From NCBI RefSeq assembly GCF_000420705.1, contig NZ_ATVL01000001.1, positions 1 through 64,000 on the forward strand: a stretch of DNA of 64,000 nucleotides. The letters are read 5' to 3'. This DNA is from Hymenobacter norwichensis DSM 15439. GTDB taxonomy: Bacteria; Bacteroidota; Bacteroidia; Cytophagales; Hymenobacteraceae. Under the pieces are notes generated by a model, which saw only the letters and a list, made by a program, of their open reading frames with translations, was not told where the DNA came from and ran no database searches. Positions 3,209-37,188 of the stretch are shown piece after piece (position 1 is the first letter of the stretch; every line of letters starts with the position of its first letter). The position numbers and the translations under genes are program-made.

Positions 3209-4408
3209 TCACTGCTTTACCACCCATTGCTGGCTCTGACTATCCTTTATCAGCTTAAAGCCTTGGTCTAGATACACCCTCTGCAAATGCTCCTCGAAAG
3301 TAGCATCTGCCGTTTTCTTCTTTTCCACCAACGTTTGGTAGACAGGTTGCAAATCTTCCAGGCGAAACCGAACAGCTTCTTTACCAGACTCAATAATTGC
3401 TGGCCGCTGCTGTCGACGCTCCTGCGCCTGCTGATACTCTGTCACCAGATGACGCTTAGTAATTGCCGTGAATATCGAGCCGGCCAAGCTCTTCACTTTA
3501 CCAAGCCGGTGTTTTTCGCGTTGAACCTTTACAACGAACAGGACATAATCTGAATCTACCTTCCCTTCCTCTAGTAATTCTAGTATAGTAGCCAAGCTAC
3601 TAGGAGCCAGTCCTACTTGATATAACACCTCCTGCCATCCGCTAAGAGGAGGCATGGCCGCCTCTATTGACAATGGGATCTGCTTGAAAAGAAAGCGGAT
3701 CTGCGCTACGCTCTTACCCTGGCGAATTAGTTCGTACTCAAATGGTAAATCAGTTCGGCTTAATTCTTCCTGCGCCCGATCTAATACGCGCAACCGAAAT
3801 AGAGGAAACTGCTTATACTGTCCATCCAGATTTAATAATCCTTTCAATTCCTCAACCCCCATTACCCGATTACCAAACGTAGAATACTCTTTTAGCAGCC
3901 AGTATATGCGGTAAGAATGCGGACTTTTTAGCTTTAACAACTGCACTACCTGTGCCTTCGTGAAGTTACGGTGCAATTGCAGCAAATAAGGCATTACTTC
4001 ATCATTGAACCGCACTCGTAGTGCCCCCTCCTCCCCTCTGTACTTAGCATAAGCCATTAGTGGAATTTTATCGAAGTCAGGTGCCACATTACGGCGCTCT
4101 TTACGCTGGGAAAGAGTTGGCCGCTCAATATGTAGGATGCGGCTTACCAGTTGGTCACACATTCCCGCTACCTGCTGGTAATCTTTACTACTTGGTCGCC
4201 GACCTGACAGGGCAACAATCTCCGTGAGCGGGATACGCATCTCTCGAAACTCATTATCGTCTCGTCCAATCCTGGAGAGCATAGCCATAAACAGCCGCAT
4301 TTCTACCGTGCTGAGATCAAACCGAGCATTTACTAGCGCGTTATGCTGGACAACAATCTTACCATTGGGTTCCTCAGGTGGGATGGCATCGAATAGGACA
4401 GTTTGCAT
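3209..4408 (-). CDS. Rep_3 (RepB-like) plasmid replication initiator
   Basis: A 399-residue initiator that would bind iterons and open the origin. The N-terminal part carries the Rep_3 pattern (KIVVQHNALVNARFDLSTVEMRLFMAMLSRI), with a first winged-helix of about 130 residues and a second near 150-250 (HSYRIYWLLKEYSTFGNRVMGVEELKGLL). It is longer than the usual 230-330 residues because of a charged C-terminal extension. I chose the ATG at 4408 over a GTG two codons earlier. It is transcribed away from nine iterons, and a dyad built from the iteron half-site lies 43 bp upstream of the start, which fits autorepression by Rep dimers. Confidence 0.88.
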   Translation of the reverse strand: MQTVLFDAIPPEEPNGKIVVQHNALVNARFDLSTVEMRLFMAMLSRIGRDDNEFREMRIPLTEIVALSGRRPSSKDYQQVAGMCDQLVSRILHIERPTLSQRKERRNVAPDFDKIPLMAYAKYRGEEGALRVRFNDEVMPYLLQLHRNFTKAQVVQLLKLKSPHSYRIYWLLKEYSTFGNRVMGVEELKGLLNLDGQYKQFPLFRLRVLDRAQEELSRTDLPFEYELIRQGKSVAQIRFLFKQIPLSIEAAMPPLSGWQEVLYQVGLAPSSLATILELLEEGKVDSDYVLFVVKVQREKHRLGKVKSLAGSIFTAITKRHLVTEYQQAQERRQQRPAIIESGKEAVRFRLEDLQPVYQTLVEKKKTADATFEEHLQRVYLDQGFKLIKDSQSQQWVVKQ

Positions 4409-4450
4409 TATCACGGGCTAGGTAGGAGGCGAAGATGCAAAAGAATAGCA

Positions 4451-4580: not shown

Positions 4581-4689
4581 TCGTGGTTTCTGTAATGGAT
4601 CGTCGTGGTTTTTGTAATAGGTCTGTCGTGGTTTTTGTAATAGATCGTCGTGGTTTTTGTAATAGATCGTCGTGGTTTTTGTAATAGAT
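4581..4689 (+). repeat. Iteron cluster 1 of the plasmid origin (five copies)
   Basis: Five directly repeated copies of TCGTGGTTTTTGTAATAGAT start at 4581, 4603, 4626, 4648 and 4670, spaced 22-23 bp (about two helical turns), so Rep monomers would stack on one face. The first copy is degenerate (TTTC and TGGAT variants). An AT-rich stretch at about 4690-4810 follows and is a candidate melting region. Confidence 0.9.
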
Positions 4690-4905
4690 GTGCCTTTCAA
4701 ATCACTGTAATTCAAAAGGTTATGACGCCTGTAAACCTTATAAACCTTATAAAATAAGGAACAACCTCTTTAAAAGGGAACAATAGGTCGTTTTTTTTAA
4801 GATGTTAGCTATTAAGGGTAAGGCATAGGAGCCCACCTGTTAGCAACTCTTTATCAGAGAGTTTTGAAGAAGTGTTTAGGTTTAGGTTTTTGCGCGGCGC
4901 GGCTG

Positions 4906-5126
4906 TCGTGGTTTTTGTAATAGATGAATGCGCACTGTAGGCCTTCTTTGGTTGTATACCTATTACAAAAACCACGACACAGGCTACTCCCCTCCCCTCT
5001 TTGGCTTGGTTAGCGGGCCATCTATTACAAAAACCACGACAAGCAACATCATAGGCAGCTATAATCAGGTTTCTAGGACTGCATTCCATTGCTCCAGCGA
5101 TAGCCGTCGTGGTTTTTGTAATAGAT
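4906..5126. repeat. Iteron cluster 2, mixed orientation (four copies)
   Basis: Four further copies of the same 20-mer: plus strand at 4906-4925 and 5107-5126, minus strand at 4958-4977 and 5020-5039. They are widely and irregularly spaced, unlike cluster 1. Inverted distal iterons commonly serve copy-number control by pairing ('handcuffing') of Rep-bound sites. An apparent minus-strand reading frame across them (4805-5221) is produced by the repeats and is not taken as a gene. Confidence 0.85.
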
Positions 5127-5320
5127 GCATTACTGCCTGAGTTAGAAGTGCAGAAAAGAACAAGTCCACTACTGCTAAGACGGCGCAAGTACGGTGTAGG
5201 GTTAATTAAACAGAAGCTCAAGCCCTATCAGCGAAAGATCCGTTACGCAAGCGGAAACCCAAAACAGACTATTGTAGCCTTAAACTTCTTTGCTACTAGC
5301 ATCTGGGGAAGACCTTATTA

Positions 5321-5479: not shown

Positions 5480-5576
5480 CTAATTCGGTTAATTATTTAT
5501 TAGTAAGGACTTTATGGTGCATTTTATGAATGATTCAAAATTTTGCAATTGGATTAACAGGCAGGCCTTTGGACAG

Positions 5577-5857
5577 TGTAGTGTCTGTAATATCTGTAGT
5601 GCTTGTAGCACTTGTTGTAACGCGTATAATTGTAATGCAAGTAGCTTATGTATTGGAAGTAGTATTTGTAGTAGGTGTGTTATTTGTAGCAGCTGTAGTA
5701 AGACAACTACATTGTAATTTAAGTAGCGCATGTAGTATCTGTATTGCTACGTAACAAGTGTAGTAGATGTATTAATAGTAATAACAGTAGTGATAGTAAC
5801 GGTAGTAACATGAGTACTAGCAGTAACGATAGTAGCAACTGTAGTAGTTGTAGTGAA
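5577..5857 (+). repeat. Array of 31 nonamer repeats, candidate partition centromere
   Basis: 281 bp consisting of 31 consecutive units, 29 of nine bases and two of ten (starting 5703 and 5749). The general form is (T/A)GTARYNNN; units such as TGTAGTGCT, TGTAGCACT, AGTAGTATT, AGTAACGGT and TGTAGTAGT follow one another without gaps. Left units tend to begin TGTA and right units AGTA. The array ends 51 bp before the parA ATG. Short tandem sites upstream of parA are the usual centromere of type Ib partition systems, where a small ribbon-helix-helix protein binds them. Period-three reading frames across it are by-products. Confidence 0.8.
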
Positions 5858-5908
5858 CTTTTATATATTGCAGCTCACAAAGCACACTCTCTGTGTAATC
5901 CTTACAAT

Positions 5909-6742
5909 ATGTCAACAGCCACTCAGGAGCGCTCTTGTCGCGTGATTGCTATTACCAACAACAAAGGGGGCGTCTGCAAAACGACTACTACGGTTGCAGT
6001 AGGCGCTCAGCTCTCTGAAATGGGATACAAGGTTTTGCTCGTCGACCTTGATCCACAAGCCAACCTGACCAAGCATTTAATAGATCCTAACGCTGAATTT
6101 GAGATTGTTTTACACACTGGGGATGTACTAGCTGGATCAGCAACTATGCAGGAAGCCATTTTGGCTTATAGCTCCAGTGTGGAACAGGCCGTTGACTATA
6201 CACTGCATTTTGTACCGGCCTCTTATTTGATGGATACTTACGAGAGCGCGCTTCGAAAAAAGCCAGACATGCCCAATCTACTGCGCAAGGCCTTGCGACA
6301 GGTTCGTCCGCATTATGACTTTATCCTGCTCGATTGTCCTCCTCAAATGTCGACTTATACCTATGTCGCTCTTGTGGCTGCTGATGGATTCTTTGTGCCC
6401 TCAAAGCCCGCAACCTTTAGCTTTGATGGGATCAAAAATGTGTGTGAGGCGGCGGAAGGAGTACGGGATCAACTCAATCCTGGCCTGCAGTTTTTGGGGG
6501 TTGGTATAATGACGTATAATCCCAGAATTGCCAGTAACGCCGAAAAGCTGGCAGTTAGTCGTATTGAAGAGTACGTGAGTACTTCGTATGGGCCCAACTA
6601 CATGTTAGGCAACGTCAGAGTAGACAAGACAATAGAAGACGCCCAGTCTAAAGGGCGCATCATCTCTGAAACTGGACTCGACACCCGGGTAGGCAGAGAC
6701 TACCACGAACTGACAACTAAACTACTTGAAGTCCTCAACTAA
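5909..6742 (+). CDS. parA: ParA-type partition ATPase
   Basis: A 277-residue ParA/Soj ATPase for plasmid segregation. The deviant Walker A box is KGGVCKTT at residues 19-26; the signature lysine is Lys19. A Cys replaces the usual Gly in KGGVGKTT. Walker B-like LLVDLDPQAN and FILLDCPP are present. There is no N-terminal helix-turn-helix, so it is the short type Ib form. I chose ATG 5909 because the earlier in-frame ATG at 5744 lies within the nonamer array and would add a Ser/Asn-rich repeat-coded tail. The small partner gene follows 11 bp downstream. Confidence 0.9.
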   Translation: MSTATQERSCRVIAITNNKGGVCKTTTTVAVGAQLSEMGYKVLLVDLDPQANLTKHLIDPNAEFEIVLHTGDVLAGSATMQEAILAYSSSVEQAVDYTLHFVPASYLMDTYESALRKKPDMPNLLRKALRQVRPHYDFILLDCPPQMSTYTYVALVAADGFFVPSKPATFSFDGIKNVCEAAEGVRDQLNPGLQFLGVGIMTYNPRIASNAEKLAVSRIEEYVSTSYGPNYMLGNVRVDKTIEDAQSKGRIISETGLDTRVGRDYHELTTKLLEVLN

Positions 6743-6753
6743 CCTTTTGTACG

Positions 6754-7128
6754 ATGGCATCTGATAATAAGCTTTCCGCTCGCAAACAACCGATGACTCC
6801 GGTAGCAACACGTTCGGCTCCTACACGAGTCTTTTTCCCTCCTGTAGAGAAGGAATCAGATGAGCCTGATGCTAGTCAGGAAGCTCCATCACCAGCAGCA
6901 CCTGCGCCAACCGTCGATAAAAGGGCAGTGGGGAAAACGAAAGAGCCCAAACCAGTTATGGTCCCTCGGGCAATTAGAATATCACCGGAAAACTTAGAAA
7001 GGCTGGCTAATATGCTCGATACTGCTCCTCGGCACGTAACCAAACAAGTGTTGATGGACTTCATCTTAACTGACTTCTTTATGAGAAGCCCGGAACTGCC
7101 GGAACAGCTTCGTAGAAAGGGTCGCTAA
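6754..7128 (+). CDS. Small partition partner (ParB/ParG-like), hypothetical
   Basis: A 124-residue protein next to parA. The first 65 residues are Pro/Ala/Glu-rich and probably disordered. The C-terminal half (VPRAIRISPENLERLANMLD, then VTKQVLMDFILTDFF) has a beta strand followed by two helices, as in ribbon-helix-helix centromere-binding proteins. A flexible N-terminus plus compact DNA-binding domain is the plan of ParG-like proteins, which stimulate ParA. The function is inferred from size, fold pattern and position beside the nonamer array. Confidence 0.6.
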   Translation: MASDNKLSARKQPMTPVATRSAPTRVFFPPVEKESDEPDASQEAPSPAAPAPTVDKRAVGKTKEPKPVMVPRAIRISPENLERLANMLDTAPRHVTKQVLMDFILTDFFMRSPELPEQLRRKGR

Positions 7129-7151: not shown

Positions 7152-7513
7152 CCTCCCCATAGGGCCCACAGTGGATATGACCGCGCTACTTAGCTACGCC
7201 CACCTCCTGCTGGAGCGACTGTTAGAGAAGGGCACGGCCTACCAGAAGGCTGGGGTCATACTCGACAGTTTAGAGCCGCCCGGCACGGGTCAGCAGCTAG
7301 ACTTGTTCGCTGCTGACCCTGCGGTCAAACTTATTGACAACCGGGCCCTCGACGCCTTGAATCAGCGTTTTGGGCGGGGCACGGTGCAGGTTGCCACGGA
7401 GGTTCCAGCCCATGTCTACGCCGTTGCGACGTAAGGTAAAACCCAGCCTCTCTGGCAAGAGACAGCCCCCGGCCTTTACTAGCCGATTCGAAGAGTTGAT
7501 GGTGGTTCATTAG
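7152..7513 (+). pseudogene. Decayed 3' end of a second umuC
   Basis: This matches the last 130 or so codons of the intact umuC at 2550-2960, beginning at the CTCCCCAT(C/A)GGGCC segment and ending at the same GATGGTGGT-CATTAG tail. The reading frame 7171-7434 preserves LLEKGTAYQKAGV, LEPPGTGQQLDLFA and LNQRFGRGTVQVAT. It is broken by a TAA where the intact gene has an AAA codon, and is shifted near the end. The copies differ at many positions, so it is not a recent duplication. No start or catalytic region remains. Confidence 0.85.
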
Positions 7514-15153: not shown

Positions 15154-15228
15154 AGTCTGATAGATTGATAGTCTGATAAATATTTAGTCTGATGGATTGA
15201 TAAATATTTAGTCTGATAGATTGATAAG
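15154..15228 (+). repeat. Direct repeats AGTCTGATAGATTGATAA upstream of the transfer operon
   Basis: Copies of AGTCTGATRGATTGATAA begin at 15154, 15186 and 15210; a shortened copy (AGTCTGATAAATATTT) begins at 15170. The two full copies at 15186 and 15210 are 24 bp apart, linked by ATATTT. They lie in a strongly AT-rich 350-bp region between oriT and the tra promoter. They could bind a regulator or partition protein, or form an accessory part of oriT. Confidence 0.65.
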
Positions 15229-27932: not shown

Positions 27933-28077
27933 GAACGAAAACCTACAAGTGGGGGAATGAAAACCTACACACACAGGGAACGAAAACCTACAGTGGAGAA
28001 TGAAAACCTACAGCTTGGTGAACCAAAAGATACAGGCGGTGAATAAAAACCTACAGGATGGTGAATGAAAAGATACA
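27933..28077 (+). repeat. Second iteron set: seven copies of GAAYGAAAACCTACA
   Basis: Seven 15-bp direct repeats start at 27933, 27955, 27978, 27998, 28020, 28041 and 28063. Spacing is 20-23 bp. Copies 5 and 7 read AAAAGATACA instead of AAAACCTACA. The sequence is unrelated to the iterons at 4581-5126. An AT-rich stretch (28078-28140) follows and the probable initiator gene ends at 28158, so this is a candidate second origin. Confidence 0.85.
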
Positions 28078-28157
28078 GTATATAAAAGCATAAAAAAGAC
28101 CATCCCGCATATAGCAAAATGGACTTTTTAATACCTTATAAAACAGCCTTGTTGTAC

Positions 28158-35031: not shown

Positions 35032-37188
35032 ATGCAACACCTTGACTCCTCGCCGGACGTACCCGTCTGCGGCGCCCCCATCGTTATAGTAAGTGCTATT
35101 ACAGCGCCGCAATGCGTAGTGTCGAGTCGGTTTTGGGCGTTTGCCCGACTGATGGCCATCGTCCTTTTGACGGCGCTGCCTATGCTGGCGCACGCCGAGC
35201 ACTTTACGGCGCCGATCTCTGACTTTGACCATGTCGGTATGGGAACCTTTACGGGCAACTATACCCAATCTACTACTGACCATCCGTGGTTCATCTTCAA
35301 TGCCAATGCTGGCAACACGGTAACGATCAACGTCACCTCTTCTTTCACTGGAGGCTTTGGCTCTGGCAGCTACACGTGGCTTTATCGAGCGCCGGATGGA
35401 TGCGCCGAAATTGGTGACTTCGCTGACAACAACACCTTGCAGCTCGTGCAAACAGCCGGCAATGGTGCCAATAACTATACGTTGACGTACACCGTCCCGG
35501 CCACCGGCCAATTTGCCGTCCAGTTGGATTCCTGGCTAGGTGGCAGCGGCGCCTATACGGTGACGCTATCCGGTTCCACGGCGACCACGGTGCTTTGTTC
35601 GACGCTCATACCTACCTTATCTACTTCTCCCCTGGCTACGGGTCCGTTTTGTGCCGGTCAAGCTTTGGCCGTTCCGTTTACCGTGAGCGGCCCGTTTGCG
35701 GCGGGTAACGTCTTCTCGGCGCAACTTTCCAACGCGGCGGGCAGCTTTGCCTCGCCGGTGACCATCGGCACGCTGACTGGAACGGGTTCGGGCACTATTG
35801 CCGCTACGATTCCGGCAGGCACGCCAGCAGGTACTGGCTATCGCATCCGAGTAGTAGGCAGTACCCCTGCCGTAACGGGTACTGATAACGGAAGTAATCT
35901 AACCATCAACGCGGCCCCGGTGCTGACGCTGCCCGCCAGTCAGACGGTGGCAGCCACCACAGGACAATGTAGCGCCAGCGTGGCTTTTGCCGCCTCGGCC
36001 ACTAATCAGGCTTCGATCGTTTACACGCTGGGCGGCACACCCATCACTTCCCCCTACACTTTCCCAGTAGGCACCTCTACCGTTACCGTTCGGGCCACCA
36101 ACAACTGCGGCACGGCCACGGGCACCTTCACGGTGACGGTGCAGGATCGGCAGGCCCCGACGGTGCGGGCTGCGGGCTTCCAGACGGCGCTGGTGAACGG
36201 CACCCGTACGATTGAGGCCGCCGACGTAGATGGTGGCAGCTTCGACAACTGCGGTATTGTCTCGCTGAGCATCAGCCCGCGCACCTTCACCTGTGCCAAC
36301 ATTGGCCCCAATCAAGTCACGCTCACCGTTACCGACAACTCGGGTAACGTGGCCACGCAGACGGTGACCGTCATCATCGTTGACAACACGGCCCCAGTGG
36401 TGTTGGCCGCCGGGTTGCAAATCAACCTGATCAACGGCACGCGCACGATTGAAGCAGCCGATGTTGACTACGGCAGCTATGACGACTGCGGCAGCATCGT
36501 GTCGCTCACGCTGAGCAAAACCACCTTTACCTGTGCCAATGTGGGCCCCAACCAGGTCACGCTGACCGTGCGTGACAACTCGGGCAACACGGCCTCGCAA
36601 ACCGTGACCGTACTAGTAGTCGATAACACGGCCCCAGTGGTAGTGGCCGCGGGCTTCCAAACCACGCTGATCAACGGTACGCGCACCATTGAGGCCGCGG
36701 ACGTGGACGGGGGTAGCTACGACGATTGTGGCTCGATTGCCTCGTTGAGCATCAGCCCACGCACCTTTACCTGCGCCAACGTCGGCCCTAACCAGGTCAC
36801 GCTGACCGTACGCGATAATGCCGGTAACGTAGCCACGCAGACCGTGACCGTCATGATCCTGGCCGATGCTACCTGCACCAACAGCGTGGCCAGCCGTAGC
36901 AACTCAGCCAGCGCGAACCTGAGCAATGAGAGCCAGCTACAGGCGTACCCGAACCCGATCACCGATCAGGCTATGGTGTCGTTCCGTCCCACGCAGGCCG
37001 GCAAAGCGCAAATCAAGGTCTACAACCAGTTGGGAGTAGTAGTGGCCACCCTGTATGATGGAGCAGTGGAAGGCAACCGGCTTTACAGCGTGACCCTGAA
37101 TGGGCAGCCGCTCGCCAGTGGGGTCTACAACTGCCAGCTCATCACCAACGGCAAGGTGACCAATCAGCGCCTGCTCGTCAGCAAGTAA
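35032..37188 (+). CDS. Secreted HYR-repeat protein with type IX sorting domain
   Basis: A protein of up to 718 residues. A hydrophobic signal segment (LMAIVLLTALPMLAHA) lies at about 40-55; the start may therefore be ATG 35152 instead of 35032. A beta-rich domain (57-190) is followed by HYR-type repeats of about 81 residues. The three final ones carry TIEAADVD, FTCANVGPNQVTLTV and DNTAPVV. The last 85 residues (AYPNPITDQAMVSF to RLLVSK) form a T9SS type A C-terminal signal, which directs export to the cell surface in Bacteroidota. Adhesive or structural function is inferred. Confidence 0.8.
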   Translation: MQHLDSSPDVPVCGAPIVIVSAITAPQCVVSSRFWAFARLMAIVLLTALPMLAHAEHFTAPISDFDHVGMGTFTGNYTQSTTDHPWFIFNANAGNTVTINVTSSFTGGFGSGSYTWLYRAPDGCAEIGDFADNNTLQLVQTAGNGANNYTLTYTVPATGQFAVQLDSWLGGSGAYTVTLSGSTATTVLCSTLIPTLSTSPLATGPFCAGQALAVPFTVSGPFAAGNVFSAQLSNAAGSFASPVTIGTLTGTGSGTIAATIPAGTPAGTGYRIRVVGSTPAVTGTDNGSNLTINAAPVLTLPASQTVAATTGQCSASVAFAASATNQASIVYTLGGTPITSPYTFPVGTSTVTVRATNNCGTATGTFTVTVQDRQAPTVRAAGFQTALVNGTRTIEAADVDGGSFDNCGIVSLSISPRTFTCANIGPNQVTLTVTDNSGNVATQTVTVIIVDNTAPVVLAAGLQINLINGTRTIEAADVDYGSYDDCGSIVSLTLSKTTFTCANVGPNQVTLTVRDNSGNTASQTVTVLVVDNTAPVVVAAGFQTTLINGTRTIEAADVDGGSYDDCGSIASLSISPRTFTCANVGPNQVTLTVRDNAGNVATQTVTVMILADATCTNSVASRSNSASANLSNESQLQAYPNPITDQAMVSFRPTQAGKAQIKVYNQLGVVVATLYDGAVEGNRLYSVTLNGQPLASGVYNCQLITNGKVTNQRLLVSK

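Follow-up and report, generated by a model that had tools for sequence, protein, structure and literature searches.

The partition system of plasmid pCXC100 from Leifsonia xyli subsp. cynodontis was described by Yin et al. (2006) and Huang et al. (2011). Its centromere reportedly consists of nine uninterrupted 9-nt direct repeats, which are bound cooperatively by a ParB of the ribbon-helix-helix (RHH) class. Arrays of 11-bp repeats are a feature of type II partition systems. According to the available extracts of PMC5016525, 10-bp repeats likewise belong to type II ParR systems; the pCXC100 centromere contains direct repeats only, and its ParB has an RHH domain; ParG of TP228 is an RHH protein with a flexible N-terminal tail, and its parH repeats are split by AT-rich regions; and in the delta-omega-parS system of pSM19035 the RHH protein omega occupies contiguous short repeats as a left-handed protein helix. 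For omega, at least four contiguous repeats are needed for full ParA activation, as stated in the extract of PMC9499535. In the StbA-stbDRs system of R388, in the excerpted account, 9-bp units around a promoter are bound by a small protein and are required for stability. Further sources on partition are PMC3098194, PMC2262945, PMC13245405, PMC3325190 and PMC3235114.

The window, which is the whole 64,000-nucleotide stretch that was analysed, forms the start of a 105,963-bp Hymenobacter contig and carries a 9-bp repeat array upstream of a parA gene. The features of the locus and its neighbours are the following.

3209-4414, minus strand: Rep_3 replication initiator gene (PF01051, E 5.5e-33), a neighbour outside the candidate centromere
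4581-4689: tandem 22-bp repeat TCGTGGTTTTTGTAATAGATCG, adjoining the Rep_3 gene
5577-5857, plus strand: 281-bp array of 9-bp units, consensus TGTAGTAnn, upstream of parA
5703-5712, minus strand: inverted unit 15 of the array, ACAACTACAT, a 10-bp step (profile-model unit list)
5858-5908, plus strand: leader from array to parA, patchily conserved (TATATTGCA, AAAGCACAC) in the alignment with H. tibetensis
5909-6742, plus strand: parA, deviant Walker ATPase of 277 aa (PF13614, E 1.2e-42)
6754-7128, plus strand: parB-like gene, 124 aa, beginning 11 nt after parA; proposed centromere-binding protein with a putative C-terminal RHH

The parA start at 5909, picked to match the annotated H. tibetensis gene, lies 51 bp from the array. 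The par promoter is probably located in the leader (5858-5908) or in the last array units; a scan for sigma-70-like sites, which does not cover Bacteroidota promoters, gave none on the plus strand between 5300 and 7300. The encoded ParA is 93% identical to that of H. tibetensis, and its plasmid matches are from Hymenobacter in eight of nine records. By count on the translation, its KGGVCKTT motif occupies residues 19-26 of the 277, which leaves no room for an N-terminal HTH. Three features of type Ib partition systems were found: a ParA-family ATPase with a deviant Walker motif and no N-terminal DNA-binding domain, a small second gene (124 aa) directly 3' of parA, and a repeat array upstream of the operon, of which the sequence and place are observed and the centromere role is predicted. 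The ATPase is a ParA and not the actin-like ParM of type II ParMRC systems.

The product of 6754-7128 is 73% identical to its H. tibetensis homologue (NZ_CP094671.1, locus L006, 4846-5223), which is absent from the gene table of that plasmid record. Of 82 loci, 75 have a ParB-like domain 3' of parA, the profile itself having been trained on some of these loci. The parB-like frame of L005/L013 has only 93 aa, compared with 156 aa in its close relative L008/L012, and this copy therefore looks interrupted. The ORF at 7171-7434 resembles by eye the C-terminal part of ORF 1545-2960, the two having GTAY.KAGV.LD.LEPPGTGQQLDLFAA in common, and is probably a duplicated gene fragment after parB. More copies of the 22-bp repeat TCGTGGTTTTTGTAATAGATCG are found in both orientations at about 4900-5130, and the 22-bp repeats by the Rep_3 gene are likely replication iterons. 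Further tandem repeats of the window lie at 27933-28078, 15154-15227 and 36196-36858, with periods of about 22, 24 and 240 bp.

A cyclic profile model divided the array into 31 units (5577-5855), in agreement with the preliminary description, which had placed 31 units at 5577-5857. The autocorrelation that it proposed as a check of the 9-bp period gave an identity of 0.511 at lag 9 and 0.483 at lag 18, and the best value over lags 4-39 was at most 0.436 in 1000 first-order Markov shuffles. The top 12 stretches of the window at lag 9 (281 bp each) all overlap the array region. The GTA core, said to be present in nearly every unit, was found at unit positions 2-4 in 27 of the 31 units and at any position in 29, and the two 10-base units mentioned in the same description start at 5703 and 5749; for 5613-5630 the model gives a 10 + 8 split of the two units, with 9 + 9 equally possible. 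The run had also been called unbroken, which is not strictly so because of the inverted unit 15 (5703-5712); units that look inverted also occur in the H. tibetensis array, where two of them are 10 bases long. A change from TGTA- to AGTA-type units, from which two sub-arrays had been suggested, exists as a weak drift from T-starting to A-starting units (rank test p 0.012; p 0.035 in H. tibetensis). However, the A type makes up a block at units 23-29 and the T type is back in units 30-31, so that the two sub-arrays are not established. In both arrays unit positions 2-4 are kept at 0.88-0.95 and positions 8-9 are nearly free. A DNA similarity search of the genome returned a single copy of the array, and the scan of the 64 kb revealed no second array of the TGTAGTAnn word.

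Twenty-five ParB candidates were aligned, leaving out repeats, the shortened frame L013 and candidates judged to be wrong frames (e.g. L021, L028, L037 and L038). In the alignments the N-terminal tail is of low complexity, and the C-terminal part has a strand-helix-helix-like pattern. Comparison of subgroup profiles connected A3 with A4 (probability 74%, E 2.7e-5) and A6 with A4 (99.7%, E 9.5e-26). Pfam gave no match for the 6754-7128 product and no RHH match in 12 members of A4; among the ParBs of seven relatives scanned, one (L085) reached RHH_1 at E 0.0025, under Pfam's cut-off. A PDB sequence search with the family of the 6754-7128 product found no credible match. AlphaFold models of two sequences predict helices at residues 78-90 and 97-111 of this product; the models, made for the two sequences and then for the C-terminal domain alone, are of modest confidence and lack the strand, and Foldseek found no significant match to them (best E 2.9). 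The family profile scored 14.3 against ParG, compared with at most 5.7 for 60 shuffles; with slightly different settings the score was 18.2, and 150 unrelated segments gave at most 17.4, four of them reaching 14.3. The label 'ParG-like', which had been attached to this gene, accords with the modest profile score and finds no counterpart in Pfam or in a credible PDB sequence match. The ParB family is a likely, if weakly supported, member of the RHH class.

The regions upstream of parA homologues were tested for periodicity at lags 5-25 against second-order Markov shuffles (100 each), a region passing if its best lag was 9 or 18 (8 or 16 for period 8) and this was reached by none of the 100 shuffles. 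Among 76 non-identical regions, 51 have period 9, five have period 8 and 20 have neither; a search for the array upstream of parA homologues had been proposed as a check. The loci were best ParA matches or chosen plasmid-like matches rather than a random sample, and 51 of 76 is therefore not a natural frequency. By our own sorting, period 9, period 8 and neither were found in 48, 3 and 15 of the 66 regions from the same genus and in 3, 2 and 5 of the ten from outside the genus but within its family or order. Regions counted as non-identical differ somewhere between -200 and -20, and some pairs, such as L018/L019 and L012/L013, are still close relatives. L006, L007, L063, L066 and L067 (repeats of L011, L015, L010, L035 and L034), L088 (a repeat of L087) and L040 (Cardinium, without a period) were left out of the 76; two more repeats, L070 and L071 (of L017 and L020), had not been entered at all. 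Three further loci are present in the window's own genome, L044 and L045 having period 9 and L043 no array at the cut-off.

In 49 of the 51 period-9 loci the lag-9 score exceeds the maximum of 4.4 seen in 100 control tiles of the window. A best lag of 9 or 18, reached by at most one of 100 shuffles, occurs in four of the 100 window tiles and in two of 34 regions 3' of parA (L023 and L025). These two loci have a 9-bp periodic stretch 900-1510 nt after the parA start, with lag-9 scores of 5.1 and 7.9, and the stretches may be real second arrays. None of 27 parA upstream regions from distant Bacteroidota passes at 0 of 100 shuffles; one of this set, L099, has lag 9 with 1 of 100, and L094, L110 and L112 were left out of it as repeats. 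At the margin the cut-off is sensitive to the shuffles, since L077, L081 and L091 had 0 of 100 in one run and 1, 2 and 1 of 100 in another; outside the genus, therefore, a firm result is left only for L082 (period 9) and L092 (period 8). The profile model picks up coding periodicity (mean score 27.7 and maximum 47.9 on 98 window tiles), and for lower-scoring loci such as L044 and L049 the period is accordingly taken from the lag test alone. The arrays of L022 and L024 consist of nearly perfect repeat copies. A scan of genome contigs yielded L008 and the distant L009, and a scan of viral contigs confirmed no relative.

The repeat word differs between plasmids. The unit consensus is TGTAGTAnn in the window and H. 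tibetensis, GTATACTwA-like in H. guriensis and the DG01 relatives, CTTGGTAGC in one further group and tnCTAGcan in another. Alignment of the window and H. tibetensis arrays scored 50.0, which does not exceed what 300 random pairs of arrays generated from the two unit profiles gave (mean 38.8, sd 9.5, maximum 67.0); what is demonstrably shared is therefore the word and the lattice, TGTAGTAnn at 9 bp. The third codon positions of the two parA genes are 62.6% identical, and the 300 nt upstream of the two arrays align poorly. Judging from these comparisons, the array sequence turns over while the word and the lattice are kept.

Words and ParBs were compared for 39 of the 51 period-9 loci, namely those in which the model scored more than 50 and a ParB domain was identified. 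Where the normalised score of two ParB C-terminal domains was at least 0.5, the word was held in common (similarity above 0.7) in 38 of 39 pairs; the other 702 pairs, with scores below 0.5, had a median word similarity of 0.43-0.47 by band. Close relatives have both the word and the ParB in common by descent. Over all pairs the rank correlation was weak (Spearman 0.13, a value reached by 28 of 2000 permutations), and similar words (about 0.9) also accompany unlike ParBs in L017-L019 compared with L052 and L062. Agreement of the word appears mostly to follow close ParB relatives. For eight co-resident pairs, drawn from four genomes, word similarity ranges from 0.44 to 0.66 and stays under 0.7 throughout; the top value, 0.66, is that of the window array with L045 of its own genome. 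H. tibetensis has five parA contigs, with four 9-bp arrays and one 8-bp array; the consensus words of the four look different, two of them being poorly defined.

An ACGT core is found in the consensus of both L047 and L059, which have 9-bp spacing, and L048, L054 and L058, which have 8-bp spacing. L047 and L059 had model scores of 57 and 73 at period 9 and of 24 and 10 at period 8, compared with 104, 75 and 97 at period 8 and 17, 15 and 12 at period 9 for L048, L054 and L058. L047 and L048 are from one H. tibetensis genome, with 148 of 258 ParA residues and 29 of 61 ParB domain residues identical. A period of 8 is also seen in L092, which belongs to another genus. The idea that the length of the ParB inter-helix loop sets the spacing at 8 or 9 bp was rejected by the alignments, because equally short loops also occur with 9-bp arrays.

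Very probably the array functions as a type Ib centromere, in a type I partition system that uses a small RHH ParB, a reading made from sequence comparison. It is well supported because the 9-bp period is common to 51 of 76 loci, the word and lattice are kept, and the word mostly follows close ParB relatives; the same survey backs the earlier view that parA and the small gene next to the array fit partition. Dimers of the 6754-7128 product would bind each 9-bp unit via its GTA core. At 10.5 bp per turn, a 9-bp step is computed to be -51 degrees, and each successive dimer would be turned back by about 51 degrees from its neighbour, since a full helical turn takes more than 9 bp. The dimers, about 31 in number, would form a left-handed cooperative spiral, like that of omega on its parS repeats, and their N-terminal tails would stimulate nucleoid-bound ParA, with the plasmid carried along. 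Thirty-one units would provide ample capacity and tolerance of degenerate units. The last units, when occupied beside the parA promoter, may plausibly also repress parAB.

The 9-bp period might also be explained by coding sequence, the array then specifying three-residue repeats (Cys-Ser-x or Ser-Asn-x): nine is a multiple of three, open frames pass through parts of the array, and parts of it are crossed by ORF 5514-5717 and by an upstream extension of parA from 5744. However, all six frames contain at least one stop in both the window and the H. tibetensis array, the 10-base steps break the frame, relatives change the word while keeping the 9-bp period, and the sister loci use 8 bp, so that no frame is kept; this is the least probable of the explanations considered. 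Rep_3-type initiators bind tandem repeats, and with a Rep_3 gene about 1.2 kb away the array could be a set of replication iterons. Such a role is very unlikely, given that the separate 22-bp repeats TCGTGGTTTTTGTAATAGATCG (4581-4689) adjoin rep and that in four annotated plasmids rep lies upstream in either orientation or 3' of parB, with a 9-bp array upstream of parA in each. The degeneracy of the units and the nearly perfect copies in L022 and L024 would suit a short tandem repeat that is neutral and persists through slippage. This is just as hard to sustain as iterons, since place and unit length are constant in 51 of 76 loci and were not seen in the 27 distant controls, and positions 2-4 are kept at 0.88-0.95 in both plasmids with positions 8-9 nearly free.

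The explanation closest to the preferred one is that the array serves only as an operator, at which ParB represses parAB, the true centromere being elsewhere on the plasmid. It has in its favour the position of the array directly upstream of parA, 51 bp from the start codon, and the double role of type Ib centromere-binding proteins as repressors, as described in the extracts of PMC5016525. Thirty-one units over 281 bp nevertheless seem, in our judgement, far beyond the needs of an operator, and neither the scan of the 64 kb nor the DNA similarity search of the genome turned up another array of the word; an operator-only role is improbable, if less so than the other three alternatives.

With the array taken as a centromere, the conserved pitch (9 bp, or 8 bp in the sister ParB group with the ACGT core) could be a functional feature of a helical-lattice centromere in Hymenobacter and some related plasmids, with a word that drifts along with the ParB; word and pitch together would act as an address code, by which homologous partition systems coexist in one cell. 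This proposal is tentative and may well prove wrong. Differing words at constant 9-bp spacing may help several plasmids to share a cell. The conserved pitch with a drifting word, together with the switch from 9 to 8 bp, is the chief interest of these loci: they provide dozens of natural ParB-array combinations in which many words occur at one pitch, as well as two sister loci that have an identical core at 9- and 8-bp pitch, which makes what sets the pitch and specificity of partition spirals directly testable. Vectors for these bacteria could also draw on them for candidate compatible centromeres. Among the best matches listed in the open-licence literature, titles and abstracts contained no description of plasmid centromeres from Hymenobacter or Bacteroidota.

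Compared with known systems, the array resembles the pCXC100 centromere as reported, with period 9 over 281 bp apart from one inverted unit and two 10-bp steps. The proposal of a new-type centromere is not upheld, since uninterrupted 9-nt direct repeats are reportedly already known from pCXC100. The array differs from the nine repeats reported for that plasmid in its 31 degenerate units, inverted unit and two 10-bp steps, and it comes from a different phylum. An hmmsearch of PDB chains up to E 10 gave four matches with profile A3 and none with A4, no match being a partition protein, and therefore no sequence homology to pCXC100 ParB was detected, its chain being assumed from the title of the paper to be among the PDB chains. 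As in the TP228 ParF-ParG-parH system, in the extracted account, a parA-like gene is followed by a gene for a small protein, with repeats upstream of the operon; unlike in that account, the array has no AT-rich separators, and the profile score of the ParB family to ParG is weak. The parS site of pSM19035 consists of 7-bp repeats in both orientations, in contrast to the 9 bp (8 bp in the sister group) and nearly uniform orientation seen here, and the lag-7 identity of the array is 0.219, compared with 0.511 at lag 9. The stbDRs of R388, according to the excerpts, form two sets of five units with 2-nt spacers and hence an 11-bp period, and the ATPase StbB is dispensable for stability. The contrast that had been drawn between 9-base phasing and 7-, 10- and 11-base type Ib arrays is correct in that the period is 9 and not 7, and fails for the 10-bp repeats, which are those of type II ParR. 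The candidate system is a variant of the RHH type I kind and not a new type; what is new here is the clade, the length of the array, the inverted units with 10-bp steps, a ParB without a Pfam match, and a conserved pitch combined with a drifting word.
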